Positions 132-30,862 of a stretch of DNA of 35,444 bases are shown in pieces. The translations under genes and the position numbers were made by a program. The notes beneath the pieces are model-generated. The model was not told where the DNA came from and ran no database searches. It was given only the letters and a program-made list of their open reading frames with translations. The first letter of the stretch is position 1, and each line of letters opens with the position of its first letter. This DNA comes from a virus. The stretch spans positions 1 through 35,444 of IMG/VR virus record IMGVR_UViG_3300029319_000195; one strand, written 5' to 3'.

Positions 132-264
132 CCAGTACTATGTATAGCGTTGAGCATCCCGCCCCGCTCTTACCCCCCACACAAATAGCATTGAGCCTTA
201 ACATGTTAGGGAATCCCTAACATCACACCCCCCACCAGATACCAGTACTAGAGATAGCGTTGAG
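132..264 (+). repeat. Three short direct repeats (CCAGTACTA / ATAGCRTTGAG)
   Basis: ATAGCGTTGAG occurs at 144-154 and 254-264, and the variant ATAGCATTGAG at 185-195. The first and third copies are each preceded by CCAGTACTA (132-140 and 242-250), so these two repeats extend over about 23 bases with two or three mismatches. They occupy the left end of the gene-free region and are distinct from the AATGTTC family to their right. They are likely protein-binding sites. The function is not known. Confidence 0.6.
205..221. promoter_or_regulatory. 17-bp palindrome, copy 1 (centre A)
   Basis: GTTAGGGAATCCCTAAC: two perfect 8-base arms (GTTAGGGA / TCCCTAAC) around a single central base. This is one of six exact copies, counting the central A/T as either strand, within the first 7.5 kb. 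The symmetry and exact conservation suggest a dimeric DNA-binding protein site. This copy is in the control region between two ATAGC repeats. Confidence 0.75.
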
Positions 265-390
265 TGCCACGCATATGCAATGTTCGCGCTGTAACCCGCG
301 CCACATAAGCAATGTTCGGTTTTTTCGTGTAATGTTCTTGTAATGTTCGTTTTTCAAATGCCAAAAAAGAACATTATAAAACGTGACATC

Positions 391-430
391 TGGTGATATC
401 TGGTGATATCTATTTATATCTACTACTACT
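391..430 (+). repeat. 10-bp tandem TGGTGATATC and AT-rich stretch
   Basis: TGGTGATATC is repeated exactly at 391-400 and 401-410. A degenerate third unit, TATTTATATC, follows at 411-420, then TACTACTACT at 421-430. The following 40 bases are almost entirely A and T. Together they make an easily melted stretch in the middle of the AATGTTC array, as expected of an unwinding element. Confidence 0.5.
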
Positions 431-492
431 AAAATAGTCTTATTATTATACTTTTCTTATAATGTTCGTTTTTTCAGAAATTACTTAACTCT

Positions 493-509
493 GTTAGGGA
501 ATCCCTAAC
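493..509. promoter_or_regulatory. 17-bp palindrome, copy 2 (centre A)
   Basis: An exact GTTAGGGAATCCCTAAC, in the control region. It lies about 170 bases upstream of the consensus promoter and 7 bases before an AATGTTC repeat (517-523). Two different putative binding-site families are therefore interleaved here. Confidence 0.75.
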
Positions 510-676
510 TTTTTGCAATGTTCTCTTAAAAATATCACCTCAGAATCTGAGCGTCCAAATCTCAAAAAAAGCGAACAAACGAACATTACTTTATTATCAA
601 TGGCTTGCGCTCCTACCTAACAGAACATTACAGAACATTACAGAACATTACACAATACAACACGCTTTATCACGGC

Positions 677-704
677 TTGACATCGTATGGTAATATGTTA
701 TAAT
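677..704 (+). promoter_or_regulatory. Consensus sigma70 promoter for the first operon
   Basis: TTGACA at 677-682 and TATAAT at 699-704 are perfect -35 and -10 boxes separated by 16 bp. Transcription would start near 711, about 68 bases before the first ATG. Three tandem GAACATT repeats end 27 bp upstream of the -35 box, well placed for an activator, repressor or origin-binding protein to act on it. It is the clearest promoter in the window and predicts early transcription by unmodified host RNA polymerase. Confidence 0.85.
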
Positions 705-778
705 GCGCTCTGGTTTTGTGGTTGAGGTTCTTTTGGCCGCAACACCATTACACACTAACTTGTTAACAGGAGATCATT

Positions 779-1765
779 ATGATCGAAGACAATAACACAG
801 CAGTAGGGATCGAGTCCTTCGTGGATATCGCCCAACCCCGCAACGCGGGAGACACTGTTAGGGAATCCCTAACAAACTTCACCCAGAACAACGCAACGAT
901 GCAGAGCGGTACGGTGCTCGTTGAGTTCACGGTGACCAAGCCTACTTTCGCAAGAAAGGACAAGACAGAGACAGCAAAACTTTTGCAGAAGACAGGTGCC
1001 ACGGCAAAACAGGCCGCTAATGTGACCAAGAGGATGTTTGCAGGGTGTGACGAGCTAAGAGACATTGACTTATATGTACTCAACAGACGCAACGATCACA
1101 AAGCTGCAACGATGCGGTACGGTAACTTGGGTTACCGGCTCACAACCAGAGCTAAGTGGTTCGACTACCACAAGATGATGACCGGCTTTGAGAAGGTGTT
1201 TTACGAGAAGGTTGACGTGTTCGTGGATTGGTACGCGAGAGAGCACAAGATCATCGAGGATTGGCTCGGTACATTGTATGACGCAAACCTGTACCCACGT
1301 ACACCAGAGAAGCTACGCGGCATGTTCGAGTGGAGACTACGGTATCCAGAGTGGGAAGATTACGGTAGCGATGACATCACCGATATGCTGGACTCACACC
1401 GTGAGATGTTGGTTGATCTATCAGCAGAGACGGCTAGGGTCATGGAACAGGAAATGCAGAACGACTTCTACAAGAGACTGTATGACCCGCTAAAAAATAT
1501 GTGCGATAAGCTGTCTGACGTGGGAGACAAGAAGCAGACATTCCGTGATACGTTAATAGATAACGTGCTGAACATCGTGGACATTGTACGTGCTAGTCAC
1601 AGCCTAGATCCTGAGATGCGTAGCATCTGTAACGATCTTGAGAGTACGCTACGCCCGATCAACTGTGATGCGTTGCGTGACAGCAGTTACCTACGTAGTG
1701 AAACCAAAACCAAGGTCGATGACGTGAGGGCGCGTATCGAGGCTTTGAACACATTTGCAATGTAA
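779..1765 (+). CDS. DUF3150-like protein, first gene of the AAA+/VWA module
   Basis: A 328-residue soluble protein starting at ATG 779 behind an AGGAGA ribosome-binding site (767-772). I see no catalytic motif. The centre (about residues 100-250) is rich in aromatic and charged residues and probably helical, including a segment MTGFEKVFYEKVDVFVDWY and several HREM/AETARVMEQEM-type helices. Overall it recalls DUF3150 proteins. These are of unknown function and, from my knowledge of the family, are found beside CobS-like ATPases and VWA proteins in phages and mobile elements. The same neighbourhood is present here, which supports the call. Codons 27-32 read VRESLT from an embedded copy of the 17-bp palindrome. 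As the promoter-proximal gene it should be expressed strongly and early. Confidence 0.55.
   Translation: MIEDNNTAVGIESFVDIAQPRNAGDTVRESLTNFTQNNATMQSGTVLVEFTVTKPTFARKDKTETAKLLQKTGATAKQAANVTKRMFAGCDELRDIDLYVLNRRNDHKAATMRYGNLGYRLTTRAKWFDYHKMMTGFEKVFYEKVDVFVDWYAREHKIIEDWLGTLYDANLYPRTPEKLRGMFEWRLRYPEWEDYGSDDITDMLDSHREMLVDLSAETARVMEQEMQNDFYKRLYDPLKNMCDKLSDVGDKKQTFRDTLIDNVLNIVDIVRASHSLDPEMRSICNDLESTLRPINCDALRDSSYLRSETKTKVDDVRARIEALNTFAM
857..873. promoter_or_regulatory. 17-bp palindrome, copy 3 (centre A), inside a gene
   Basis: An exact GTTAGGGAATCCCTAAC within codons 27-32 of the first gene, about 150 bases downstream of the promoter. Read in the gene's frame it is GTT AGG GAA TCC CTA AC. The other two frames would contain stops (TAG or TAA), so only this frame tolerates the site. 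A bound protein here would be a roadblock to transcription from the promoter at 677-704. Confidence 0.7.
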
Positions 1766-1775
1766 GGAGACAGGC

Positions 1776-2162
1776 ATGGAATGGGAAGACATATCAACGT
1801 GGGATGAGATGGCGCGAGAAGTTGCCAAGCTCAAGCGTGATAACGAGTGGTTGCGTGAGAAAGTTACCTTTCTTGAGAACCGCGTCGATTTTCACAAGAG
1901 TCGTTTGCAACTATTGATGAAAGATGTAGCTCATTCGAGTGGTGATCTGAAGGATCTACTTGGGGAGTACAACTACCCACACTCATACATCGAGTATGCA
2001 GTAGGCGACATAACGACTGCCGACGATAACATTTCTGTTGGGCACAGTATGACCGAGACTGTAAACACAGGAGAACATGTTAGGGATTCCCTAACAACAA
2101 CAGACGAGCAGGACAACGAGGCTATTGAAGATAACCTTTACGACTTGCCAACAACTAACTAG
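1776..2162 (+). CDS. Small coiled-coil protein of the AAA+/VWA module
   Basis: 128 residues from ATG 1776, with AAGGAGA at 1764-1770. An in-frame TTG further upstream lies inside the previous gene and has no ribosome-binding site. Residues about 10-50 (EMAREVAKLKRDNEWLREKV and the following LENR/HKSR) show a leucine/charge pattern typical of a coiled coil. The C-terminal half is acidic and Thr/Asp-rich, probably disordered. An exact palindrome copy encodes VRDSLT at residues 102-107. No family recognised. Its position between the DUF3150-like gene and the ATPase gene suggests an adaptor or regulator of the complex, which is inference. Confidence 0.75.
   Translation: MEWEDISTWDEMAREVAKLKRDNEWLREKVTFLENRVDFHKSRLQLLMKDVAHSSGDLKDLLGEYNYPHSYIEYAVGDITTADDNISVGHSMTETVNTGEHVRDSLTTTDEQDNEAIEDNLYDLPTTN
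2079..2095. promoter_or_regulatory. 17-bp palindrome, copy 4 (centre T), inside a gene
   Basis: GTTAGGGATTCCCTAAC, the same palindrome with T at the centre, near the 3' end of the coiled-coil gene and about 80 bases before the ATPase start codon. It is again in the only stop-free frame. Confidence 0.7.
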
Positions 2163-2172
2163 GAGAAAGACC

Positions 2173-3282
2173 GTGACTATGAACTTTGAAAAACAAAACA
2201 GAATGTCGATTGACGAGATAGCGAATGATATCGCTGTGACAGGTACGTACCGAACTGTGTACGTGCAGGGCGATTCAGGATCGGGTAAGACCTCGATCAA
2301 GCACATACTTGCCAAGAAGTTTCCGAATCATCAGGTGGTGCATTGTGACTTGACCAACTACGATCTGGGTGACTTGAACCTACCAGCATACAAGGACATG
2401 GATGGCGATGAGTTTATCCGCTTTGTAGCGAACGAGGATCTTGGGTTACACCTTAACAAACCACTGATTATCTGTTGGGATGAGTTGGGTAAGGCCAACA
2501 ATTCAGTGAAGAACGCGGTACTGCGACTGTTCCTTGAACGTAAGATGGGGCGGTATCAGTACCATCCAGAGACAATCCAGTTTGCTACCGGCAACCTGAG
2601 TGCGGAGAACATGGGTGACCTGTTCCTACCACACCAGAGAGAACGTGTGACGATGGTACGGATGCGGAAGTCCAGCAATACCGAGCACGTAGAGTATGGG
2701 TTGAAGAACGACTTCGATGAGGCATACCTTGCATGGGTTGCCGACACCCCGATACTTGGTCAGTCATTCGATGACATCAAGAAACCAGAGGACAACCCCT
2801 ACATCTACCATCCTCAATCCAACGCGGATAAGTTCTTTACTTGGCGTGGTGGTGAGGCGGCATCGAACATGCTCAAGGACAGAGACAGGCTATCCAATGT
2901 GACCGCCATGCTAGGTGGCACTATCGGATGGGCCGCCGCTATGGATCTCATGGCATACGTGAATGTACGTGATGACTTGGCATCTCTTGAGGACATCAAG
3001 AAGAATCCAGAGACAGCCAAAGTACCTAATGGTGCTGGTGCCAAGATGATGTCGATCATGAGGGCATTACTTAACTTAGACGTGACGTGGATAGACGCAT
3101 GGATGAAGTACGCGGTGCGTATGGATGACCAAGTGATGGCGATGTTTGTCAACACAATCAAGTCTGCGAAGTTTGCAGAGGACGATACCAAGAAGGCTAA
3201 GGTGCAAGCGATGGTGATGAGCAACAAACTCTTCAGTGAGTGGTGTGCAAATCATCCGCATCTTTATTCAAGTGATATTTAA
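2173..3282 (+). CDS. MoxR/CobS-type AAA+ ATPase
   Basis: A 369-residue AAA+ ATPase. Walker A is GDSGSGKT at residues 33-40; Walker B is LIICWDE with D103-E104; a sensor-1-like FATGNL follows, then an arginine-rich HQRERVTMVRMRK segment. MoxR/CobS-type (AAA_5) ATPases form hexamers that remodel partner proteins and act with a VWA-domain partner, usually encoded next door, as here. The start is taken as GTG 2173, 7 bases after AGGAGA (2161-2166); ATG 2179 is the alternative. It would not be the cobalamin cobaltochelatase subunit despite resemblance to CobS, as no cobalamin gene is nearby. The protein target is unknown. Cytosolic. Confidence 0.85.
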   Translation: MTMNFEKQNRMSIDEIANDIAVTGTYRTVYVQGDSGSGKTSIKHILAKKFPNHQVVHCDLTNYDLGDLNLPAYKDMDGDEFIRFVANEDLGLHLNKPLIICWDELGKANNSVKNAVLRLFLERKMGRYQYHPETIQFATGNLSAENMGDLFLPHQRERVTMVRMRKSSNTEHVEYGLKNDFDEAYLAWVADTPILGQSFDDIKKPEDNPYIYHPQSNADKFFTWRGGEAASNMLKDRDRLSNVTAMLGGTIGWAAAMDLMAYVNVRDDLASLEDIKKNPETAKVPNGAGAKMMSIMRALLNLDVTWIDAWMKYAVRMDDQVMAMFVNTIKSAKFAEDDTKKAKVQAMVMSNKLFSEWCANHPHLYSSDI

Positions 3283-3294
3283 TTGGAGGATAAC

Positions 3295-4620
3295 ATGTTT
3301 AGTTTAGCTGAAAATTTACCCGCCGAACAGCGGATCGAGAAAGCGTATAGTGACATATACGCACATCCACGGTACGTCACATGGGGTGGCGTACTGATAA
3401 TAGGTGATTGGATTGTCAGTGATGATTGTCCAACTGCCTATACCAACGGACGTGACTGCATCTATGGTAGGAAGCTGGTTGATGACTCGGACGATAAAGA
3501 AGTACGTTTCGAGGTACTGCATGAAGAGATGCACAAGCTGGCTATGGATATGGGCGTGTGGAAACATCTATGGGATATCAACCCAAGGCTGGCAAACATC
3601 TCGGTAGATATTGTAAACAATCTCAAGATCGTTGAAGACGATAACGGTGAGGGGTTCGTGAAGTTACCCGATGCACCAGACAAACTGATGTTGGGTGGCA
3701 TACAGGTGTGCTATGACGAGCGGTTCAAAGGTATGGCGGCAGGGGATATATTCCATATCCTACTGGAGGAAGAAGAACAGAAACGTCAGAACGCACCGGA
3801 CAGCGGTGATGATTCTTCTGGTAACGAGTCAGGGGATGATGGAGAACCTAGTGACGGCGATACTACTGGAAATCAAAACACTGCTGTAGGTGGCGATGAC
3901 TCTGGTGGGTTCGATGCACATGATTGGGTTGGTGCGGCTGATATGCCGCAGGTCGAGAAGGATCTACTCAATCGTGAGATAGACTCGGCAGTACGTCAGG
4001 GTGCGCTCGCCGCGAGTAAGTCAGGGCATGGTAACGAGGCAATGGATATCTCTGGTGTGTTGGAGGCACAGGTGAATTGGCGTGACGTGTTACGTGAATT
4101 CTTTACCTCATCGTGCAAGGGTACGGACTATTCTACCTTTGCCAAACCGAATAGGCGATGGGTTGCGCGTAACATGTATATGCCTAGTGGTCTGTCGGAT
4201 CGGGTAGAGGACATCGTGATTGCGTGGGATACGTCAAACTCTATGTGGGATGCTACTCCCCAGCAAATCATCTTGTCAGAAGTTGTCAAGCTGTGTGAGA
4301 CAGTGACACCAAACAAGGTACATATCCTGTATTGGGACACCAAGGTACACACACCACATGAGACGTATACGTTTGATGAGCTAGATACTATGCGTGATTC
4401 GGTTAGTCCTAAAGGTGGTGGGGGTACAGATGTTGCCTGTGTACCGACCTATATAACTGAGCATGGACTTGATCCGCAATGTGTCATCGTGTTTACAGAT
4501 GGTGAGTTATGGGGTGATTGGGGTACATGGCATTGGCCTTTACTCTGGTGCTTCAAGGACAACAAGAGAGCTAGGCCAGACGTGGGCAAGTACGTCAACG
4601 TCGATAGCATGGACATTTAA
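3295..4620 (+). CDS. HEXXH metallopeptidase-like plus VWA domain protein (DUF2201 type)
   Basis: 441 residues from ATG 3295, preceded by GGAGGA at 3285-3290. An upstream TTG at 3283 overlaps the ribosome-binding site and is unlikely. The N-terminal domain carries HEEMH at residues 76-80, the zinc-ligand pattern of metallopeptidases. An acidic, Asp/Ser/Gly-rich linker follows (about 162-205). The C-terminal domain is a VWA fold with an intact metal-ion-dependent adhesion site: D312-x-S314-x-S316, T378-D379 after a glycine run, and D402-G-E. This arrangement matches DUF2201-type proteins that partner MoxR ATPases. It likely serves as the substrate-binding partner of the adjacent ATPase. Whether the HEXXH motif cleaves protein is unproven. 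Confidence 0.8.
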   Translation: MFSLAENLPAEQRIEKAYSDIYAHPRYVTWGGVLIIGDWIVSDDCPTAYTNGRDCIYGRKLVDDSDDKEVRFEVLHEEMHKLAMDMGVWKHLWDINPRLANISVDIVNNLKIVEDDNGEGFVKLPDAPDKLMLGGIQVCYDERFKGMAAGDIFHILLEEEEQKRQNAPDSGDDSSGNESGDDGEPSDGDTTGNQNTAVGGDDSGGFDAHDWVGAADMPQVEKDLLNREIDSAVRQGALAASKSGHGNEAMDISGVLEAQVNWRDVLREFFTSSCKGTDYSTFAKPNRRWVARNMYMPSGLSDRVEDIVIAWDTSNSMWDATPQQIILSEVVKLCETVTPNKVHILYWDTKVHTPHETYTFDELDTMRDSVSPKGGGGTDVACVPTYITEHGLDPQCVIVFTDGELWGDWGTWHWPLLWCFKDNKRARPDVGKYVNVDSMDI

Positions 4621-4633
4621 GAAGGAGGAGTAG

Positions 4634-4870
4634 ATGAAGATACCAGAAAAAATAACACCGGCATGGTTGGAGAAGAAGAAGTTTCGGTTGATAGAGATCT
4701 ACCGTAACGGTTATCGCTCGGCCATTCTTAGGAAGTCAGGCACCAAATGGGTACACCTCACCACTATGGATGGGGCGAACATAAGGATGCGTAAGGATAA
4801 ACTAAGGTACGCAAAGCCGATGGTTCGGGTACGTGGGAAGTGGAAGGTAGACAGAGAAAGTGTGCTATAG
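4634..4870 (+). CDS. Small basic protein, unrecognised
   Basis: 78 residues from ATG 4634 with an excellent AAGGAGG site (4622-4628), 13 bases after the VWA gene, so in the same operon. It is strongly basic (many Lys and Arg throughout) with an alternating hydrophobic pattern (FRLIEIYRNGYRSAIL, KWVHLTTMDG) suggesting a small beta-barrel such as an SH3-like fold. It could bind nucleic acid. No family recognised. It may belong functionally to the AAA+/VWA module. Confidence 0.7.
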   Translation: MKIPEKITPAWLEKKKFRLIEIYRNGYRSAILRKSGTKWVHLTTMDGANIRMRKDKLRYAKPMVRVRGKWKVDRESVL

Positions 4871-4920
4871 GTGCAAACACTACCGGAACAAACATCGTGT
4901 GGTGCTGCAAAAACTAAGTT

Positions 4921-4937
4921 GTTAGGGATTCCCTAAC
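4921..4937. promoter_or_regulatory. 17-bp palindrome, copy 5 (centre T), intergenic
   Basis: GTTAGGGATTCCCTAAC in the 86-base gap before the next gene, ending 8 bases before its AACAGGAGA ribosome-binding site. I see no clear -35/-10 pair around it. In the mRNA it could also fold as a stem just upstream of the start, so an effect on transcription or translation is possible. Confidence 0.75.
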
Positions 4938-4956
4938 ATATTAACAGGAGAAAATT

Positions 4957-6039
4957 ATGTTCGACAAAAACAACAGAAACAAAGTTAACGGATGGGTATA
5001 CCGAGGTGGCGACTCGGCATACAAGGCTGTCCCGCATCTGGATAATTGGGCAGACGTGGTGAGTCTCTACGATTCGGTCAAGCCAGTGGTCAGCAAGAAC
5101 CACAGTATCGAGGAGAACTTACGCCCAATCGGTCAGCGTAGACGCAAGTGGGAACACATAACCAAACAGGAAGACATATATGGTACTACCTATCGTATCG
5201 AAGATGGGAACGGTGGCACCGCTCTTATGTGGGAGAAGAAAGGAATAGTCCTAGATAAGCAAGATACCTACCTCACTATCTTCAGTGCAGGGTCTAGGTG
5301 GGTTTCAGCTAGAACTGCCAGATACAAACTTCTTGCTAACGTGTTACCGCATGGTTTGGATCTTGTGCAAGCCCGCAGCGGGACAAATCGTTACATACGC
5401 GGCATGGCATGGAATGGCAACGTGAATGAGTACGAAACGGATTACTACCTACCAGAAAACGTAGGTCAGGGGCAGTACAAAGAATTGGAAGGTACGCTTC
5501 TTCGATTCAAGCACACTAACATTGGATGGAAGCTGGATTCATCAGAGTGGGTGCCAGAGAAGAACCAGACGCTGGTGAACAAGGAAGAGAAGCGTCAGTA
5601 CAGGGAACACTACGAGTCATTCTATAAGTGGGCCGTTGCACTCACCCCGATACAGCCAAGAGTTGATGCCATTCGATCTGGTAATTGGATCAGAGATGAT
5701 TACAGGGAACAGTGTGCGTACAGGGAGCAGATAAAAGATCGTCTGGAGGAGTACATGCAAGAGAGGTATGCAGGGACTACTAAGATGATAACACGCAACC
5801 ACGGTGACTACGTGGGTATACCCAAGGAGATAATGCTTGAGGTGTTAACAGATGATAATCATCCGATGCGCGTTGTGGCATTGACTGATTTTCTTATGCA
5901 GAGCGCAGGTCAGTACTACATGATCGAGAAGCGTGACGAGAAGGAGTTTCGTAAAGGATTCAATACATGGCTGAACCATGTGTGTTTCCACGAAAACAAA
6001 ACAACCCCCCAATACATGATAACCAAGGAGGACAAATAA
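4957..6039 (+). CDS. Unrecognised 360-aa protein
   Basis: 360 residues from ATG 4957 behind AGGAGA (4946-4951). It looks soluble and is rich in Trp, Tyr, Arg and Lys, with no signal peptide, membrane segment or catalytic motif that I recognise. The middle (about residues 100-200) looks beta-rich, and the part from about 205 is helical (EEKRQYREHYESFYKW, EQIKDRLEEYMQERY). Its stop overlaps the next start (TAATG), so the two proteins are translationally coupled and may act together. It follows the AAA+/VWA module, separated by a palindrome, so it could be under separate control. Confidence 0.7.
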   Translation: MFDKNNRNKVNGWVYRGGDSAYKAVPHLDNWADVVSLYDSVKPVVSKNHSIEENLRPIGQRRRKWEHITKQEDIYGTTYRIEDGNGGTALMWEKKGIVLDKQDTYLTIFSAGSRWVSARTARYKLLANVLPHGLDLVQARSGTNRYIRGMAWNGNVNEYETDYYLPENVGQGQYKELEGTLLRFKHTNIGWKLDSSEWVPEKNQTLVNKEEKRQYREHYESFYKWAVALTPIQPRVDAIRSGNWIRDDYREQCAYREQIKDRLEEYMQERYAGTTKMITRNHGDYVGIPKEIMLEVLTDDNHPMRVVALTDFLMQSAGQYYMIEKRDEKEFRKGFNTWLNHVCFHENKTTPQYMITKEDK

Positions 6040-7022
6040 TGAGACACGATAAATCAAAAGAAGTTGTAGAGATAATCGAGATCGAAAGAACAGGCGATGC
6101 CGATGCTGGTGTTGGATATAAGCAATGGAGAGAGGTTCAATCCAGAGATCGGGTGTGGACTGATGCTCCAAATGGTGGCAACGATACAGGGTTTCAGATG
6201 GACTTGTTACTGCAAGATATACGTATGCGTGTACCCAAGGAAGTGAAGTTTGGGATATGTGACGAGCATAGCGGTGATCGAGTGTATCTGTACGTGGCAG
6301 ATCAGCAGTTTGCTATGGGGTGGGTAGCCTACGGTGACTACTCTGTTGGTCAAGGTTGGATGGGTAAGGAAAAGTACGCAGTTTGGTCACCCCACATCTA
6401 TAACGATAAGTTTAGTGGCGGTGGGGAACAGTCCGAACTTAACTACCACATGCGTATCAGCAAGAACCGCAAGCCCATACTCAAACACATTGAGGAGTTT
6501 GTGAAGCCGGTGAGTGCCTTGGAAACCGCAGAGAAATACGTAATCACGTTTCTCAATAAGTTAGGTCAGACTTACAGAATAGCATCCAATGATTTAAGTA
6601 ACGCGAAGGGTAACCTTGGTAATAAGGGAGCCGTGATAAACGAACTCTTGCGACTACATGCTATGGGGCATGAGTGGGCTGATGCGGGACTAAAGGCTGA
6701 CGTGTTAGCGTTAGTTGATAAAGATAGAGAGTTACGGGAGATACTTACTCCACGCTACAAACTAACCTTTGTCCGATTGTATGTACGTAATGAGGAGCAG
6801 CTATTTGATGTGATCGATATGGTGAGTCCTACCGTGATACAGGCTAACTCTTTTAACGATGCAGAGTTGGGTACTGAAACTAAAACCTACACCTTGGATA
6901 AGTTGCCGCAAAATCTCAGGCTAAAGATATCAACTATCAATACAATGGAGATAGGTCACTGTGTACTTGGTGTTGGGTATCGGGCAGAGCAGAACATATT
7001 CTATGTCTGTGAACAGCTTTGA
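6039..7022 (+). CDS. Unrecognised 327-aa protein
   Basis: 327 residues from ATG 6039, which overlaps the upstream stop as TAATG and has AAGGAGG at 6025-6031. The open frame extends further upstream, but those starts are inside the previous gene. N-terminal residues are charged and helical (EVVEIIEIER). The central part is rich in Tyr, Trp and Gly (VAYGDYSVGQGWMGKEKYAVW), suggesting beta structure. The C-terminal third is mixed. No motif or family recognised. Its coupling to the 360-aa protein suggests a pair. Confidence 0.7.
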   Translation: MRHDKSKEVVEIIEIERTGDADAGVGYKQWREVQSRDRVWTDAPNGGNDTGFQMDLLLQDIRMRVPKEVKFGICDEHSGDRVYLYVADQQFAMGWVAYGDYSVGQGWMGKEKYAVWSPHIYNDKFSGGGEQSELNYHMRISKNRKPILKHIEEFVKPVSALETAEKYVITFLNKLGQTYRIASNDLSNAKGNLGNKGAVINELLRLHAMGHEWADAGLKADVLALVDKDRELREILTPRYKLTFVRLYVRNEEQLFDVIDMVSPTVIQANSFNDAELGTETKTYTLDKLPQNLRLKISTINTMEIGHCVLGVGYRAEQNIFYVCEQL

Positions 7023-7284
7023 TACACACGTAATGATACGTAATGATGTGATATACCGTGTTTTCATACCAAATGATGGCAAAGATATAAAAGTGTCATG
7101 TATTGGTATGGAATGTGTTGACTCGACAATTCAGGGGGTGTATTCTGACCTAGATGCGCTACCAGAATTGTTGAAGGAACGCATTGCGGTATTGAGTATA
7201 TTGAAACCGAGTATTGATGTTAGCGAAGTTGTCGGCATAGGTAAACGACTAGACGAACAGACATATTGGGTTTACAACTTGTAG
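7003..7284 (+). CDS. Unrecognised small protein
   Basis: Up to 93 residues if translation starts at ATG 7003 inside the end of the previous gene, or 83 residues from ATG 7033. Neither has a good Shine-Dalgarno sequence, so the start is uncertain and coupling to the previous gene is likely. The body has regular alternation of hydrophobic and charged residues (VIYRVFIPNDGKDIKVSCIG, LPELLKERIAVLSIL), typical of a folded small alpha/beta protein. No family recognised. It is the last gene before a 520-base gap. Confidence 0.55.
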   Translation: MSVNSFDTHVMIRNDVIYRVFIPNDGKDIKVSCIGMECVDSTIQGVYSDLDALPELLKERIAVLSILKPSIDVSEVVGIGKRLDEQTYWVYNL

Positions 7285-7462
7285 GGTAAGTGGTTAGGCC
7301 AATATCACTTTACGGATGACATTCTCGGCAGGGGTGTCATCTTACGGATGGCATACTTTTTCTTTTAAGTAAGAGAAAGGCAGGATGCACAAGCACAGGC
7401 CGCTGTGTTGGAAATAACCAGAGCAGTGGCATGTCATCCCCCTACTTTCTTTCCCGCATAGT

Positions 7463-7479
7463 GTTAGGGATTCCCTAAC
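7463..7479. promoter_or_regulatory. 17-bp palindrome, copy 6 (centre T), intergenic
   Basis: GTTAGGGATTCCCTAAC in the 520-base gap, upstream of an AT-rich patch (about 7508-7530) that could hold a promoter. This is the last perfect copy in the window. Confidence 0.75.
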
Positions 7480-7807: not shown

Positions 7808-7963
7808 GTGGCGAAAGTAATTATAGAAGTAGATGAGGCGGAGCTACTTAAACTAATAGACGTACAGGTAGAGATGCTGACTACGCTAGAGAAGATCAAT
7901 ACCAATCTGGAGAAGTTGATGACCAGACGTGGAGACCTAGCAAAGCCAGATACCAGTACTTGA
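7808..7963 (+). CDS. 51-aa helical microprotein
   Basis: 51 residues from GTG 7808, with AGGGG (7796-7800) upstream. The overlapping ATG at 7807 hits a stop after four codons. The sequence has a heptad-like leucine pattern (ELLKLIDVQVEMLTTLEKI) over residues 11-40, so a short helical hairpin or coiled coil is likely. It ends at TGA 7961-7963. No family recognised; small coiled-coil proteins of this sort are common in phage early regions. Confidence 0.65.
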   Translation: MAKVIIEVDEAELLKLIDVQVEMLTTLEKINTNLEKLMTRRGDLAKPDTST

Positions 7964-8154: not shown

Positions 8155-8481
8155 ATGACTCCTGAAGCCAAGGTGAAGAAGGTGGTGGTCAAACAGTTAC
8201 GTAACCTTGGGGCTTACTACTTCTATCCAGTGACGAGTGGGTATGGGCGTAGTGGGGTGCCTGACATAGTAGGGTGCTACAAGGGTAAATTTTTTGGTAT
8301 CGAGTGTAAGGCTGGAAAGAACGTACCTACTGATCTGCAACGGATCAACCTCGAAGACATTGATAAGCAGGGCGGGATTGCACTGGTTGTTAATGAAAAG
8401 AATATGCACAGTGTTCAAGACCTTCTTGGGCCTTCTGATGTAAACGACAAACAACTGGAGTTTGATTTTGAGTACGAATAA
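8155..8481 (+). CDS. VRR-NUC domain nuclease
   Basis: 108 residues from ATG 8155, with AAAGGAGG at 8138-8145. Almost the whole protein is one VRR-NUC domain, a PD-(D/E)XK-type fold: GVPDIVG with D37, then IECKAG with E50-x-K52, and QRINLEDIDKQGG matching the family's Q-x-x-W/L region. In phages such single-domain proteins are thought to act as Holliday-junction or branched-DNA nucleases in recombination or packaging. The 3' end overlaps the next gene by 14 bases. Confident on family, less so on substrate. Confidence 0.9.
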   Translation: MTPEAKVKKVVVKQLRNLGAYYFYPVTSGYGRSGVPDIVGCYKGKFFGIECKAGKNVPTDLQRINLEDIDKQGGIALVVNEKNMHSVQDLLGPSDVNDKQLEFDFEYE

Positions 8482-8866
8482 ATACGGAAAAATAATGCGG
8501 GCGTTGAGTAAATCCCCAAAAAAGTCCAACAAAGAGGTAGCGGCAACACTTGGTGTGTCAGCTTCTTATGTGTACAAGGTGCGTAAAGACTACGAAGTAG
8601 ACGCTGAGGCTCATAACTTCGCACTTAAAGTAAATGAGCTAACGAAGACTGTATCGGACGGTAGCACTGCGTCTTACTACGAACTTCCAGAGGGAGCTAA
8701 CGAACTGCAAGACCTGATATCACATCGAGACATGAACGCACAGATCGGTGAAGTCTTTCGTTCCTGCTACCGATACGGAATAGCATCACACAGTGATAAG
8801 TTAAGGGATGCCAAGAAGATTAAGTTCTACATCGACGCGGAGATAAAGAGGTTAGAGAAGCTGTGA
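8468..8866 (+). CDS. HTH plus DUF3310 protein
   Basis: About 132 residues. The start is probably TTG 8468, with GGAG (8457-8460) upstream, giving MSTNKYGKIMRAL; ATG 8495 is an alternative that would cut into the HTH. Residues about 5-40 form a helix-turn-helix (NKEVAATLGVSASYVYKVRK). Residues about 65-128 match DUF3310 (YYELPEGANELQDLI, then IGEVFRSCYRYG and DKLRDAKKIKFYID), a phage family sometimes called nucleotide-kinase-like, of unproven function. Fusion to an HTH suggests a DNA-binding role such as transcriptional regulation. It overlaps neighbours on both sides. Confidence 0.8.
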   Translation: MSTNKYGKIMRALSKSPKKSNKEVAATLGVSASYVYKVRKDYEVDAEAHNFALKVNELTKTVSDGSTASYYELPEGANELQDLISHRDMNAQIGEVFRSCYRYGIASHSDKLRDAKKIKFYIDAEIKRLEKL

Positions 8867-14324: not shown

Positions 14325-14714
14325 ATGTTACAAGTTAAAGACTTAGTTAAGCGATACATAGATATTCGCGATAGTAGGGCCGAGCTTAAAGAAAAATACG
14401 ATACAGCAGACGAGAAGCTGTCAGCCAAGCTGGACGAAGTAAAACGCCAGTTGCTTAATTTCTGCAATGAGAATGACTTGGATGGACTGAAGACCCCAGA
14501 AGGATCTTTATCGATATCAAACAAGACTAATTACTGGACAAACGATTGGGACTCATTAAGGGAATTTGTTTTAGAGCATGGTGTCACAGAGTTTTTTGAG
14601 AAGCGGTTGCATCAGAGCAACATAGCAGAGTTCTTGGAGGAAAACCCTGAGTTAATACCGAAGGGATTGAATGTAAGGAAGGAACGCGCAATTACCGTAA
14701 GGAAAGTAAAATGA
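14325..14714 (+). CDS. Conserved phage protein with N-terminal coiled coil
   Basis: 129 residues from ATG 14325. Upstream bases lack a clear Shine-Dalgarno sequence. The N-terminal half is a long charged helix (DIRDSRAELKEKYDTADEKL). The second half has a small domain (GLKTPEGSLSISNKT, WDSLREFVLEHGVTEFFEKR) ending in a basic strand (RKERAITVRKVK). This layout is common to a hypothetical phage protein family encoded near replication genes in many podoviruses and siphoviruses. Some relatives are described as nuclease-inhibitor-like, but I would not assign that here. Confidence 0.7.
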   Translation: MLQVKDLVKRYIDIRDSRAELKEKYDTADEKLSAKLDEVKRQLLNFCNENDLDGLKTPEGSLSISNKTNYWTNDWDSLREFVLEHGVTEFFEKRLHQSNIAEFLEENPELIPKGLNVRKERAITVRKVK

Positions 14715-14971
14715 ATGAGGAACCTTTTGTTCCGATAGAAACATTGGCAAAACACTTTGCTGTCTCAGTGCCTACGATAAGATCATGGTATCGTACAAAC
14801 AAGATACCCTCTGGTTCTTACGTAAAGGTAGGTAACACTTACAGGTTCAAGATATCTACTGTTGAGGATGCACTTAAAAACACAGCAGAAGAACCTGTTG
14901 ATTTAGAGGCGGAACAACATGAGCACGATCTCTTGTTCTCCGGCGACAATGACGTAGATAACGACGTGTAG
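14711..14971 (+). CDS. MerR/excisionase-like HTH protein
   Basis: 86 residues from ATG 14711 (ATGA overlap with the previous stop). Residues about 7-45 form a winged-helix HTH of the MerR/excisionase (HTH_17) type: PIETLAKHFAVSVPTIRSWY followed by a short wing, KVGNTYRFKIS. The C-terminus is acidic (EAEQHEHDLL, DNDVDNDV). It is probably a sequence-specific DNA-binding protein. No integrase lies in the window, so an excisionase role has no support. A regulator of phage operons, possibly using one of the repeat families here, is an open option. Confidence 0.75.
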   Translation: MNEEPFVPIETLAKHFAVSVPTIRSWYRTNKIPSGSYVKVGNTYRFKISTVEDALKNTAEEPVDLEAEQHEHDLLFSGDNDVDNDV

Positions 14972-16534: not shown

Positions 16535-16554
16535 GGGGTAGTTAATGCTACCCT
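16535..16554 (+). promoter_or_regulatory. Hairpin between exonuclease and primase genes
   Basis: GGGGTAG (16535-16541) pairs with CTACCCT (16548-16554), seven bp including one G-T, around TTAATG, in the 74-base gap. A T-rich run (16571-16576) follows but not directly after the stem. It may be a weak terminator or RNA processing site that tunes downstream expression. Confidence 0.4.
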
Positions 16555-19604: not shown

Positions 19605-19615
19605 GAATCCCTAAC
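19605..19615. promoter_or_regulatory. Half-site of the 17-bp palindrome
   Basis: GAATCCCTAAC matches 11 of the 17 palindrome bases, while the left arm is lost. It lies in the gap between the converging operons, 20 bases before the terminator hairpin, and overlaps a small hairpin (TCTGCT/AGCAGA, 19593-19606). It may be a decayed or weak site. Confidence 0.4.
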
Positions 19616-19634: not shown

Positions 19635-19671
19635 CCCCCTGTTGTGCCCAGAGCAGCAGGGGGTATCTTTT
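19635..19671 (+). terminator. Terminator at the convergent junction
   Basis: CCCCCTG (19635-19641) and CAGGGGG (19657-19663) form a 7-bp GC stem, with further TGC/GCA pairing inside, followed by TATCTTTT on the + strand. It ends the replication operon exactly at the stop codon of the opposing 2578-aa gene (19670-19672). On the - strand the same hairpin lacks a T-run, so leftward transcripts would be stopped less efficiently. Confidence 0.75.
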
Positions 19672-22600
19672 AATCGTAAACGTATGTGGGTTTAATCTCT
19701 GCCAACGGCCCTTGCATGTTCTTACTAATAGTTACACCACCATGCATATCTGCCGTCGTCCGTATGTGACCTGCAATAGACCGTTTTATAGTGTCCCCAA
19801 GTATAGCGTTACTCGGATGCCTCTTATTAAACTTTTGAATTTCTTTTAGTACTTCGTTAGCTCCGTCCCAATCCCCTAACCTATACATCACATATAGTTT
19901 TTTCGTTAAGCTGGATTTTTTCCTGTTTACTTCAGTATCAATACGTTTTTTAATTTGGTTAAATTCTTGCGTTCGTGTGTACTCGGCGGGTGGAAAACCT
20001 AGCATCTGTGGTAACACATCACCAGCACCAAACTCTTCTAATATTGGATCTCCACGTCTGGTTAATATGCCATCATCACGTATGTAACGCACTCCACCTT
20101 TCCATGCATTTCTTATAGCAGAAGGCACCATATTCTCCATACCTCGCTCAAGTTCTCCATTCATAAAATCATTATGCGCCCGATCAAAGGATTTAATTAC
20201 ACCCCAAGCAGGGCCACCTAGATAGTGCGCTAGACTTTCTTCTGGAGATGCATCGTTATTATACCTATTAGCAGTCCAAAGCAGGTTAGTGAGGGCCACA
20301 CGTTGTGATACATCTATGTCTAACATAGAAGTGAGTCCTCCCTTGTACCACTCTTCACCTATATATTGTCGTACTATCGTATCAAAATCTTCTTCTTCCT
20401 CATCTAAGAACAACATGTCGGCAAGCATACTTACCGCGCCATAAAGAGGTACGCCACTCACTCCCGCAAAAAACAATGCCGTGCCATGCACACCGTATAG
20501 CTGTTTACGCGCAATCTTTCGTTCTTCTGGAGAAAAGTCAGCATCTAAAGCAATCTTCGCAGACTTCAACATAGAATAGTACATTTGTAACCCGAAGTTC
20601 TTGTACATCATGGCTACACGTAACCAACCATTTTGAGAAAGTCTTGGGCCTGTTTCTAATACAGCACCACCATTGGTTTCTTGGGTCGCGTATAATGCAT
20701 TAGTGGAAGCTAACTGTTGCTTCTCCGCTGTAGTCATTTTGCTTTCGGGGTTTTTACTATCTTTTGCTTTCTCGTTTATTTGTTGCATCTCTAATTTATA
20801 TGCAGCAATTAACGTAGTTTGGCGGTTTATTTGTTCTGCTTGGTGGAACATGTACGCAGATACTGCGCTTATTTTATCCGTAAGACTTCTTGTTCTTCCA
20901 GATACGTCAATGTTTAAACTATCGGCTATGAGGGAACGGTTTAATTGTCCTCTTTCAGTAGCCATCTTAACTAAAGGTAGTAAATTATCTACTTCCTTAC
21001 GTAATTCTTTTGATAACTCTAAATCTTCACGTACAACAAAGTCACCATCTTTCCATTCATAATAGTTATCAATCGCGGGCATTGATTTATCTCTTACTAT
21101 ACCTGTCTTCCTGTCTTTACCTTCCCCAAAAGCAACATCGAATGATCCTTTACTTGTAGTGCCACTGGATATCCCAAAACGCCCCGCTTCTTTTATTGCG
21201 GCTACGGTTTCCGTATATCCATACTTAGCACCAAACATAGGTAGAACGAACAAAGGTATCTGTGACAGGTTAACCAGTGCCGAAGATGCGTTAAATCCAA
21301 TAGTGTAAATAAATGCGGCTCGATTTAAATTCTGTGCAACAACATCTTTGGGTGGGTTACGAGCAAAATCGGCTCGTTTTTTAATTTCAGCTAAAATAAG
21401 CAATCCATTATCAGACCTTCCTTCTGGAGTTGTTTTGTTGTCTTCCTCTATCTTCTCCATTAAAGAGTTAATAGCTTCTGTGTTCTTCATACGCGCAATT
21501 TGTCTGGCTATGTCATAACCTTTCTTCTCCATTGCGTCCACAGCATCCTCTATGTAACCGGGAGTCCCTTTACGAGTTTTTAAAGACTTAGCAAATGAAG
21601 ACTCAGGGAGTGCGGTCAAAAACAAACGTGTTATTTCGTCTTTTATTTCGGTGGCTTTTTCCTGACTTAACCCTGCGGTGGCGTGGCTGTCAATTATCTT
21701 TAGTGTTTGACCTACAAAAGAACCAGAAGGAGCCATATCGTAAGAGAACTGTTCAGGATTTCGGAATGATTGGATAGTCTCTTCTGCCACTATCCCTTCT
21801 TCTTTAAGTAATTTAATCGCATGTCTACGGGTAGTAACAGACTCAAAAGTTTCTACAACGGTCTCACCACTTCCTTTTATTTGGTAGGACAACCAGTAAT
21901 CACCTGAACGCGTTAATGGGAAGAATGGATCAATATCACCTTGAGCGAATAACTGTTCAAACACTTCATTCTTTAATTTTGTTTTACCCTCTTCATCTAA
22001 AGGTAACACGTCAATCCTTCCTTTTATTACATCGTGCATCTCCTCCCATTTCTTTTTGTAAATATCTCGCATAAATTTGTAAGTATCTTGTCCAGCCGTG
22101 TCTAGCTTCCTATACTTACTGTTTAATTCATCCCATTTAGCTAGTTTTTCTGCGTCGTCTAAATCCGCTTGCGTTTTTATTTCGTCTAATTTTTCTTGGG
22201 GTATTTGTTTCCTAGCTTCTTTTAGACTAATTTCCTGTTTTGTCTTTTTAAATACACTGTTTTGAATACGCCTAGCTTCTTTATCAAGGGCTATCTCTTC
22301 TGCTCTTATATAAAAACTTTTTGGTTTAGATGGATCAACTTGTTCTATTGTGCTTGTATAGACAACATCATTAAAAAGTTTCTTTGTGGCTTCTGATTTA
22401 CCTTTAAACCAACTTTTTATCTGCGCTAAGTTGCTATCCATATTAGCATCTACTTTACTAAGATCCCCCCGCTGTTTTTCCATCGCAACGTGAAGGTCTT
22501 GCATACCTGTTATACCCATACCAGAAGCTACATCTGCTAATGCTTGAGAAGGTAACACCGACAAGAAAAAGGTTTTAGCATTATCTGCCATCTTCCCACT

Positions 22601-25600
22601 AAGGAAATCTTTTGCTAAAGCTTTAAATTCTTCTTTATCTTGGCTAGTAAGCTCTTCACGTATACCTTTTTGAACCTCACCTACTCTACCCATAAGACTC
22701 TTTATGCGAGGCACAGTGTTGTCCATAGCCAATATCCCTGCATCCCTTGAATCAGGTGCAGGTGAGAGTATCTCTAATATAATTTTGTTAGATTCTGTTA
22801 ACGCGTCATCATATGTTTTAAAATTCAAACCCAGTTTGTTGTTAAGAAATCTTGCCACGATGTTAAAAAATCGGGTAAGTGCATTAGTACCTGTAGCTGG
22901 TTTACCATCCTCCAACAGTATTTTGGCTAACTTCTTTTGAAAATCAGGGTTACTAAATGCTTCTGCGGCAAACTCATCTAACGTAGTCGCCCCATATGCA
23001 GTATCCAGACTGTCTTTAACTTCGTTGAATAGTTTATTAAGTCGTTTGGTTAACGGGTGATTCTTGTTAGCTAAAGTTTCTGAAGTTAATGCGTGAGTAA
23101 CCTCATGGAATACTACATGTGTATTGGTTCCTGATGCTGGATTTATGTATATCGTATTAGTCTTAGGATCAAATTGCCCTGCCATGTCTAAGTCGGGAGC
23201 AATCTGTATTTTGGTGCTGCCCACAAACTCACTTAATTTTCTAGCAATACTTCTTACTTTTTGATTACTAGAGGTAGTGCTTATGGATTCCAAGGCTTCT
23301 TTGAGATTACCGTCCGCGATCAACGCCATCGTGACAGGATGAAATCGTTCACTTAATGCACTGACTATCGCACTAGGTAATGGTAATGTCTCACCGCTGT
23401 ATACCTTACCTATTATATAGTCGGTTGGAGAGACATCTTTAACTACCCCAACTTGTGTTTTTCTTATAGTGTTAAAGTTAGATAAGTCTTGTCTTAGTTT
23501 TTCATTGCTGCGATCAGTGCGTTCTGTTTTTGGAGTTTTCTCTGCCGCTGCTATGTTCTTATCTTGTTCACTTGCTCTCTGCCTACGTAAATCATCTTTA
23601 TCTGAAGCAATAAGAGATAGTTGAGTTTTAGCTTCCTGTGCTTGAAGTTCGCGTCTTACGTTCTCCATCCATTGTTTGGTCTTGGGGGACATATTCTCGT
23701 TAGCCCACTCCAATACTTCCCTTGCTCGTTTCCGTCCTGTGGCCTTAAAAAACTTCTTGGTTGCCTCAGATTCACCTGTTGAGTTGAACTGCTGTGGGTA
23801 TACAAACTGCCCTTTCTTCTTACCTTCTGTGTACTTACGAGCATGAAACACATCTTCAAATATGGCCCAATACAATGCACTCAACGGCTCGACTTTAGGG
23901 TTGGTACGAGAACCAAAGAACCCCTGCAAACTCTCCATTAGAGAATTTTTAGTCACTTTCTCTGTATTTTTTATTGTGTCTATTTTGGCTGTGTCCCCTT
24001 GAGTAAGGGGGCTTGTCCCTGTGGCATCACTAGGTATACCGTCCATCAAGAAAGTAATCCTGAAGCCACCGTCCTGTACTGTCTCAAAACCTAAATACTT
24101 AGGATCGAAATATCCATCGTCCCTTAACTGTATCATGTCTTGTTTTTCTGCAACCTTCATCCCTTCGACATCTTTATACTTCTGCATTAATTGAAGTGTC
24201 GCTTCAGCCTGTTGTTTAGCTGTTAGTTTTTTAGGGGGTCTCGGTTTTGCTTTAGGTTTAGGTTTAGGTTTAGCAGTAATGTTCCCAGTGCGTTGTCCAG
24301 TTTTAGTAGTTTTCTTTGTGGTAACACGTTTAGCTGTATCATCTTTCTTATCGACTTGTTCGGGTGAAGTTGTTTCGCCTGTATCTGCAAGCTTACGTTG
24401 CATCCGATTAAGAGGAGCTTCGGTAAAGGCTTCTTCTATTGCGTCCCCTATTGTTTTTTGGTCGCGGTTAACTGCTGTAGGTTGCACGCCTCCCATTCTC
24501 TGGGCTTGCCCAACCATTAAATCATACAATTCCGTTAATTCTTTTTTAGCCGCTATAAATTCTGGCATCGCATCTATTTCTTCTTGCGACTTACCTTGAC
24601 TTAATTGATTAGCATTAGCTTGTTCTATCCTAGCTTCTGCTTCTTTGAAGTTCTTTTCGTATCTGTCTAGTACACGCTGTTGAACTTCAGGATCTGCATC
24701 AAACTCGGCATCTTGTTTTTTCCTTTGTGCAACGGCTTCTAGTCTGTTAAACCCGCTTTGTTCTGTTGGTTTACCAACAATTTTTTGTTTGGTGGGGTCA
24801 AACGCTACAATTTGGTCTTGGGTAAATATGGAAGGTATATCAAGTGCTTCCTGTTCTTTAAGAGTAAGCGCATCCATACCTTTTATTATTAACCCGTCAT
24901 ATCCCTGTTCTTTTAACCTAGATATTTCAGTTTCTTTTAACGTACCAATGTCATCTGTTACTGTGAAATCTATTTCACCAACAATTTCTTTAAATTTACC
25001 GACTGTTTCAGGGGTAAGTACAAAAGCTTTTTCAAATGTTGCTTCGACATCATATACAAACGGTAAAGGGTCGAAACCGTACATATCAAATTCTTCTGAG
25101 GGCTTTAAAAATGGGTTATCTGGGTAGCCCATGTACAAGACATCATCACCAAAGACTCCCGGCTCTTGCCCTTCTGCATAACGAGCTTCGGGGTTTACAT
25201 CTTTAGGATCAATAAAGCCTGTTAAGTCACTCTCTGAAGAACCATGCTTTAACGGTATTGTCCCACTAAACGAACTATCGTCTTTCTTTGGTTTGATAGA
25301 TTCTTTTAGCCGTTTGGTTTCTTGCTTAGTGGGTATTAGAGATAGCTGTTCATCAGGCACACCTGACAACAAACGGTCTACGTTTTGTTTAACGTCCTGA
25401 GATTTAGATTTTCTAGCAAATGCTATTAAGTCATCACGTACTACAGGATCGTTTAAGTCTTTACCTTCTATTCTTTTACGTATAAGTGCATTTTTTGATA
25501 TGCCAAGGCCGTCCATAACCTCAGAAGTTACAGGTGTGGGTTCTTGAGCAACTTCTACATCTTCGTCTACAGTTGGAGTAGCAGTGAGTCCCGCACGTCC

Positions 25601-30115: not shown

Positions 30116-30862
30116 TCACGCAGGTAAAAATTTATTAGGGTTTATTTGTTTACCCTGTTTTGGGTTTCCAGTACGTGACTTACGTACCTTAGTCATCATA
30201 CCATCTAATACTTTTGCTCCAGCATCAGAATTGCCATTACCTAAATGACTAACTACATCTGCCGGTATTACAAACTCACCATCACTTAACGCAGCAGGTT
30301 GAGTTCCATTAATACTTGCCGGTATTTTATCTGCCATGCCGTCAGTAGAACCACTTAAATATCGTCCACGATTTAGTCTAGCGATACCACCCGCAGCTAA
30401 ATCAGTATTAACGGGCACATCTTCTATTACTGAAGAAGCTCCTCTAAATTCTGGTTGAACTGGAGGGCTTGCAGGTCGTTGTCTGTTACGTGCGTTTAAA
30501 GCTGCTAACCCACTTGCTTGTGATGCTGCCATAGCTTTAGCTTGTTCAGGAGTAATTTCAGGTCTTTTTTCTGGCCCTTTAGCATAAATGGTATCGGTAA
30601 AATACCGTTGCCCCATGCTACCGGGTCTTCTATTAGGGTCATACGCCATAGGAACACGCTGGCTTACTGCGGTGTAGCTAGGTATACCCCCTTGATATCC
30701 TGTCTTTGGTATCTGCTCATCAAACAACCCAGACTTACTAGCACCGTAGGAAAGTCCTAATTTAGCTAACGCTGCCAAACCAGAGTCACTACCCATAAAA
30801 TCCTGAAAACTACCGCCAACATCTTTAGCAGTACCAACTAAGTTATCCCACCACGAAGCCAT
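30116..30862 (-). CDS. Virion-associated protein with C-terminal LSDGEFVIPADVV domain
   Basis: 248 residues from ATG 30862, overlapping the previous stop, with GGGAGG upstream. The N-terminal 150 residues are Gly/Ser/Pro-rich and low complexity. The C-terminal 95 residues contain LAAGGIARLNRGRYLSG, then DKIPASINGTQPAALSDGE, FVIPADVVSHLGNG, and a basic helix (MMTKVRKSRTG). The SDGE(F/Y)VIPADVV pattern is, from memory, a common module in phage internal virion proteins and tail proteins. It ends in a basic tail KQGKQINPNKFLPA. A structural role is likely; the precise function is unknown. Confidence 0.7.
   Translation of the reverse strand: MASWWDNLVGTAKDVGGSFQDFMGSDSGLAALAKLGLSYGASKSGLFDEQIPKTGYQGGIPSYTAVSQRVPMAYDPNRRPGSMGQRYFTDTIYAKGPEKRPEITPEQAKAMAASQASGLAALNARNRQRPASPPVQPEFRGASSVIEDVPVNTDLAAGGIARLNRGRYLSGSTDGMADKIPASINGTQPAALSDGEFVIPADVVSHLGNGNSDAGAKVLDGMMTKVRKSRTGNPKQGKQINPNKFLPA

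Follow-up and report, generated by a model that had tools for sequence, protein, structure and literature searches.

The window considered here, the entire IMG/VR virus record IMGVR_UViG_3300029319_000195 (35,444 bases, classed as a genome fragment of an uncultured phage), carries in its left part six mismatch-free copies of a 17-bp palindrome, GTTAGGGA-W-TCCCTAAC, within a span from 205 to 7479. Comparison with related phages by computation has revealed that the letters of this palindrome and the sequence of one phage protein, c2 (cluster 2), switch together between relatives. Judging from these comparisons, a phage-made DNA-binding protein of an unrecognised family very probably docks at the palindromes. 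In the reading favoured here, to which a probability of about 0.68 is given, c2 is a phage-coded dimeric regulator and the palindromes are its double-stranded operators, serving a stoperator-like repression of early genes with specificity switching of the heteroimmunity type.

Palindromic Sites in the Window

An earlier note on this DNA had listed six exact copies of the palindrome and judged their number to be far beyond chance. Both statements have been borne out, with an exact-match scan of the window returning exactly these six and a scan at up to three mismatches adding none, against an average of 0.04 and a maximum of 1 in shuffled sequence. A looser scan of the arms only, with 2 mismatches, gave one extra poor match at 16541. 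The true length of the site is 19 bp, as a T precedes and an A follows most copies. The sites, which have no assigned strand, and the promoter among them are as follows.

205-221, palindromic site 1, GTTAGGGAATCCCTAAC, exact match, non-coding leader region
493-509, palindromic site 2, GTTAGGGAATCCCTAAC, exact match, non-coding leader region
677-704, plus strand, sigma70-type promoter TTGACA-16-TATAAT, 12/12 match with TG before the -10, preceding gene 779, with which the early genes of the window begin
857-873, palindromic site 3, GTTAGGGAATCCCTAAC, exact match, within gene 779-1765, where it is read V-R-E-S-L-T
2079-2095, palindromic site 4, GTTAGGGATTCCCTAAC, exact match, about 80 bp before the point where the ATPase gene probably starts
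4921-4937, palindromic site 5, GTTAGGGATTCCCTAAC, exact match, leader of gene 4957
7463-7479, palindromic site 6, the last, exact match, separating the early block from the replication block

A "half-site" singled out by the same note at 19605 proved uninformative because lone 7-mers occur at chance frequency, GTTAGGG being found outside the palindromes four times (16551, 19609, 19874, and 34975) with about four expected. The central base is indeed A in the left three copies and T in the right three, but the polarity flip read into this did not hold, since no orientation bias was seen across the clade: among 201 non-redundant sites with a 3-base spacer, oriented by gene direction, the base was A in 80, T in 75, C in 31 and G in 15, and with A and T near-equal it carries no polarity.

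Distribution Across the Clade

The 17-mer has been detected in at least 73 other IMG/VR records of one clade (79 viral-contig stretches), often several times per contig and with 5-11 copies in the best-covered contigs, always clustered in the early module. The motif-bearing viral contigs share the genes of the window. Profile queries were used because a single-protein query with the VWA protein gave zero confirmed loci. Confinement to the left 7.5 kb is a real and general property, with near-complete relatives keeping all exact sites in one block of about 7-12 kb that reaches from the neighbour gene of the terminase small subunit (TerS) to just short of the DNA polymerase. Cellular genomes yielded only 8 matches in 257 Gb, where about 30 are expected from base counts alone (own arithmetic), so that the 17-mer lies below chance there. 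The motif is neither a product of chance nor derived from a host, and no mention of it was found in the literature searched.

A total of 227 exact-arm copies was counted, window included. The arms GTTAGGG/CCCTAAC are almost invariant and their spacing is 3, 4 or 5 bases (236, 132, and 26 cases), spacings of 0-2 and 6-9 never having been seen; the spacer-4 form occurs in at least 120 stretches, nearly all from the same clade. With spacers of 3-5 bases, the half-site centres lie 10-12 bp apart, or one turn of DNA. The sites are mostly in leaders and junctions, and many are found in the leader 15-45 bases before a start codon, directly after the preceding stop codon. Strong sigma70-type promoters occur 60-120 bp upstream of sites other than those at c2 about five-fold more often than expected (47 in about 173 sites vs. 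about 10), and core promoters are not overlapped; in the window, site 3 is located about 145 bp downstream of the expected start of the promoter at 677-704. Most of the sites away from c2 therefore sit in leaders with a promoter upstream.

Joint Switching of the Palindrome and c2

Relatives were fetched through the terminase small subunit (query A2) to avoid motif bias, with 80 kept of 448 confirmed. Loci with enough upstream sequence mostly carried a repeated palindrome of the same geometry and in the same places, but with other letters, including GTTAGTG, GTTATAC, GTTATAA, GTTAGTC, AGTATGG, TGTATAC, ATTATGC, TGTAGTT, GGTAGTG, GTGTAGG, CTAGGGA, TGTGTAT and more, amounting to about 18 types within one clade. 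Palindrome-family scores were 3-7.5 vs. about 1 in shuffles, and a clear family was lacking at loci where little upstream sequence was available. Between syntenic positions the flanks are kept and only the palindrome is rewritten, as in GTGGTTAGTT-GTTATACGGTGTATAAC-TTAGAAGCCGAG vs. GTGGTTAGTT-GTTAGGGAGTCCCTAAC-TTAGAAGCCGAG. The earlier note had asked whether relatives keep the genes and lack the sites: the genes are kept, and a different palindrome of the same design stands in the same places. On a TerS tree of 60 rows, 17 motif changes are required, four of them separate origins of GTTAGTG. Some placements on this tree are unsure owing to long branches, on which the closest pairs do not rely. 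In one locus (L136:8590-12006) the sites are relaxed, with a variable first arm base and spacers of 4 and 5 mixed, perhaps reflecting a specificity in transition.

The c2 gene, which encodes a protein of about 175 residues, is the first rightward gene of the early block and lies beside the terminase genes, pointing away from them. A site is present 35-190 bp upstream of nearly all c2 genes. Where no exact site was found, one-mismatch sites occur nearby (G007, L136, and L047), the gene is at a contig edge (L150) or it is a weak family match (L072). The site and c2 have a near-consensus promoter between them in about 32 of 46 non-redundant loci, with the -35 usually 25-38 bp past the site, which places this site outside the c2 transcript.

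Closely related pairs with different motifs differ strongly in c2. Between L416 (GTTAGTG) and L202 (GTTAGGG), TerS and the terminase large subunit (TerL) are each 97% identical and c2 is 30% identical; between L358 (GTTATAC) and L057 (GTTAGGG), TerS (92%), TerL (89%), the portal protein (94%) and the early protein c4 (89%) are set against a c2 of 33%; and between L367 (AGTATGG) and L158 (GTTAGGG), TerL (96%) and the portal (94%) against a c2 of 25%. In control pairs sharing a motif, c2 is 84 and 95% identical. Among the 122 loci compared, pairs sharing 90% or more identity in TerS, which are not independent of each other, had c2 at or below 40% identity when the motif differed (23 pairs) and c2 medians of 83 and 92% when it was the same (211 pairs). 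Taking into account its linkage to the sites and this joint switching, c2 is likely the binder of the palindromes, as a prediction from sequence. The suggestion that one protein binds all copies is likewise supported, in the form of a single, putatively dimeric, sequence-specific binder.

Neither of the two helix-turn-helix (HTH) proteins put forward earlier as binders appears to fill this role. The one at 8462-8866 (given as 8468-8866) has a detectable relative in only one motif-bearing contig (L078), and the one at 14711-14971 is a conserved Xis/MerR-like protein of the replication module with no sites beside it.

An AlphaFold model of c2 is confident (predicted local distance difference test score, pLDDT, 86.8) and all-helical, with the best-conserved stretch, Q-Q/K-[IV]-G-S-x-x-K-D-x-[RK], inside one long helix of 29 residues. 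This core is mostly QQIGSKLKD in proteins accompanying GTTAGGG, and it reads IGARIGD, IGARVGD, VGAIRGD, and IGTKIGD in those accompanying GTTAGTG, where four main-type proteins share [AT]xxGD. Binding of the sites by c2, reading of the DNA by this helix, roadblock repression and immunity are all inferred. Searches with c2 gave no matches in Pfam, PHROGs, PDB sequences, or isolate phages (E 0.01), and Foldseek and VIA-align with the model returned only common helix matches. In two loci (L388:4333-4923 and L395:610-1197, minus strand) the C-terminal parts of c2 are nearly identical and the core helices differ, a pattern of domain shuffling of the presumed reading part.

Mode of Action and Alternative Explanations

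According to the proposed mechanism, each c2 monomer would read one half-site of 7-8 bp (GTTAGGGA), the two monomers lying on one face of the DNA. The protein would probably be made first, from the sigma70 promoter next to its own site, and would then occupy the 5-11 sites that the early block has in its leaders and gene junctions, most of them lying past a promoter. Bound c2 would shut early transcription by blocking elongation, in the fashion of the L5 stoperators, with feedback on its own gene. Once c2 is replaced, all sites of that phage would come to carry the new sequence, and phages would form groups blind to each other's sites, like heteroimmune groups.

Several observations weigh against this reading. 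The window begins downstream of the expected place of c2, leaving the c2 of its own genome off the contig; the gene should lie just beyond base 1. The protein has no recognised DNA-binding fold. A second type of c2 associated with GTTAGTG (L193 and L429) has an unrelated core, and single-residue exceptions in the core, all with GTTAGGG, have been detected (G in L038 and L181, A in L070 and L210); a recognition code of one residue to one base was considered and dropped over these exceptions. The zinc-finger gene c13, the neighbour of c2, has also changed between L358 and L057 (49%), although between L416 and L202 it is unchanged relative to the same-motif control (75 vs. 76%). The site at c2 is upstream of the promoter, whereas other sites are downstream of theirs. 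Finally, a search for lysogeny or partition genes, as the earlier note had advised, gave no match to integrase, resolvase or ParA among 16 long records in which the controls were positive. For this reason lysogeny is unsupported, and with it immunity as usually understood; superinfection exclusion or early shut-off with a private specificity may take the place of lysogenic immunity.

Since at c2, unlike elsewhere, the site precedes the promoter, activation of this gene is equally possible, and the protein as a whole could be an activator or an architectural, condensing protein whose sites organise the early DNA or boost the c2 promoter from about -70. The site at c2 has its centre at about -70 to -80 relative to a strong promoter, where activators usually bind, and the avoidance of core promoters also fits such a function. 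Most other sites, by contrast, are in leaders that follow a promoter, a location from which activators do not work, and the c2 promoter is already near consensus, so that this explanation is considered unlikely. A dual role, with c2 as activator at its own gene and roadblock elsewhere, is compatible with the data. Partition or replication sites (parS-like or iterons) bound by a segregation or origin protein have also been weighed, as symmetric, dispersed and exact sites resemble parS and an iteron-like array of TAATGTTC is present at 330-650 of the window. Against this, the ParA-type ATPase (PF13614) is absent from the 16 long records, c2 is not ParB-like by family search, and the sites are about 1 kb apart at gene leaders across 7-12 kb. 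The partition site suggested earlier is accordingly not supported, and a partition or replication role for the palindromes is highly improbable.

A further question is whether the sites act as DNA or as RNA. Hairpins in the early mRNAs, with stems of 7-8 bp and loops of 3-5 nt, could control translation, decay or processing gene by gene; many sites are just upstream of a Shine-Dalgarno sequence, the sequences fold well as RNA, 3-5 nt is an ideal loop size and, in gene direction, conservation is higher at the +1 A than at the -1 T. However, the spacer ends (A...T) and the flanks (T...A) are symmetric, and the spacer consensus (A-N-T, A-A-T-T), like that of the flanks, is itself palindromic despite being the unpaired loop of such a hairpin. 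Of the sites with a 3-base spacer, 97-98% have A and T at its two ends, which speaks against a hairpin because the ends of a three-base loop could not pair, and no pairing beyond independence was found at the flanks (-1/+1) or spacer ends. Sites with one mismatch are rare (21) and do not favour changes that preserve G-U pairs, the c2 site would be missing from the c2 mRNA, and the motif type tracks a DNA-coded partner gene. The symmetry of spacers and flanks and the site upstream of the c2 promoter together point to double-stranded dimer sites rather than RNA hairpins, the latter being an improbable explanation. Intrinsic terminators (a GC-rich hairpin followed by a T run) were rejected, as just 9 of 327 non-redundant sites have at least five T in the next 8 bases. 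Hairpin promoters of the N4 type for a virion RNA polymerase were rejected as well, directional conservation of the loop or downstream sequence being absent and near-consensus sigma70 promoters being present instead.

Comparison with Known Systems

In immunity regions of the lambda cI type, symmetric operators are read by a dimer and specificity is exchangeable. Symmetry and exchangeable specificity are shared with the palindromes described here, but lambda has few operators at two promoters, in contrast to the 5-11 sites over 7-12 kb that are rewritten in place. Another parallel is offered by the cluster A mycobacteriophages (L5 and Bxb1), in which many copies of one short site are found in leaders and junctions, mostly off promoters, and one phage-coded regulator differs together with its site to define immunity groups (PMC6550527; PMC9283540), immunity being presumed for the phages studied here. 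The operators and stoperators of L5-type phages are mostly outside promoters and their specificities differ between relatives (PMC6550527), and the likeness proposed in the earlier note is supported by both properties. Nonetheless, the 13-mer sites of L5 lack symmetry, follow the direction of transcription and are bound by an HTH-containing monomer (PMC9283540), whereas the present sites are symmetric, 17-19 bp long and non-oriented. L5 sites also cover the genome rather than one early block, c2 belongs to an unrecognised family with no Pfam, PHROG or PDB match to link it to the L5 HTH repressor, and integrase and ParA were not found in the 16 long records. Judging from these differences in site and binder, the c2 system would work like the L5 stoperator system but is not a member of it. 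The earlier interpretation is thus retained for one dimeric binder and the likeness to L5, and abandoned for the HTH binders, partition and the polarity flip.

The Rhizobium phage RHph_TM3_14A (L112 / MN988472.1), a distant relative with the MoxR/VWA pair and the DNA polymerase, carries palindromes of the same geometry: about 61 degenerate copies of GTTACCT-N3/4-AGGTAAC spread genome-wide at about one per kb, 43 of them inside genes and 30% intergenic, compared with 10% of the genome sequence. No c2 relative was detected in this phage, which as a cultured phage would allow a related kind of site to be studied. In KPP25, Rollin, phiA008, and Presley a repeated palindrome of this kind was not found.

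The joint changes amount to a natural experiment, in which a regulator and its many scattered targets change specificity together, at the same positions and on near-identical backbones, and, in a group of phages that is common in metagenomes, they link an unannotated protein family to a DNA target predicted letter by letter. Tentatively, and at somewhat less than even odds, c2 may found a new family of phage DNA-binding regulators with a long core helix reading the half-site, present in hundreds of uncultured phages that fall into many non-cross-recognising groups, with 5-10 sites rewritten in concert at each replacement of c2. If so, an immunity-like code of self and non-self would exist in phages without recognised lysogeny genes, the way of changing all sites at once being unexplained. 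It would then have to be asked why such a code should diversify in phages that have no integrase, resolvase or ParA.

Gene Content of the Window

The window gave zero nucleotide-level matches against the phage database. Its genes are those of a tailed phage and include a MoxR-type ATPase and VWA pair, a family-A DNA polymerase, an SNF2-type helicase, a primase/helicase and a giant protein of 2578 residues with DarB-like parts. The nearest isolates, at 30-40% identity at the protein level, are Rhizobium phage RHph_TM3_14A, Pseudomonas phages KPP25/phiR18 and Pseudomonas phage Rollin. The genes of the early block are listed below.

779-1765, plus strand, early gene of cluster c4, 328 residues, clade-conserved, with site 3 in its 5' end
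1755-2162, plus strand, small early open reading frame, 135 residues, no relatives found, with site 4 near its 3' end
2125-3282, plus strand, MoxR-type AAA ATPase (phrog_1297), early gene
3283-4620, plus strand, metallopeptidase-like/VWA protein (DUF2201), partner of the ATPase
4957-6039, plus strand, early gene c14, 360 residues, function not assigned
5967-7022, plus strand, early gene c7, function not assigned, kept in 22 contigs
6961-7284, plus strand, early gene c9, function not assigned

The ATPase/VWA pair at 2125-4620 is common to N4-like phages (Schitoviridae, e.g., Presley gp25-like) and RHph_TM. Two giant genes are found at 19670-27406 (the 2578-residue protein with DarB-like parts) and at 30862-35178 on the minus strand (1438 residues, with no PHROG matches). 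The non-coding stretch at 330-650 holds an iteron-like cluster with 8 of the 10 copies of TAATGTTC in the window (expectation for the whole window 1.75), to which a 10-bp tandem of ACAGAACATT at 620-652 also belongs, and it may be an origin. Another element, GATRCCAGTA(C)...AGCGTTGAG, is repeated at 128-163 and 238-273, adjoining palindromes, and occurs also at 7949; matches of the GATRCCAGT type number 105 in 50 clade sequences.

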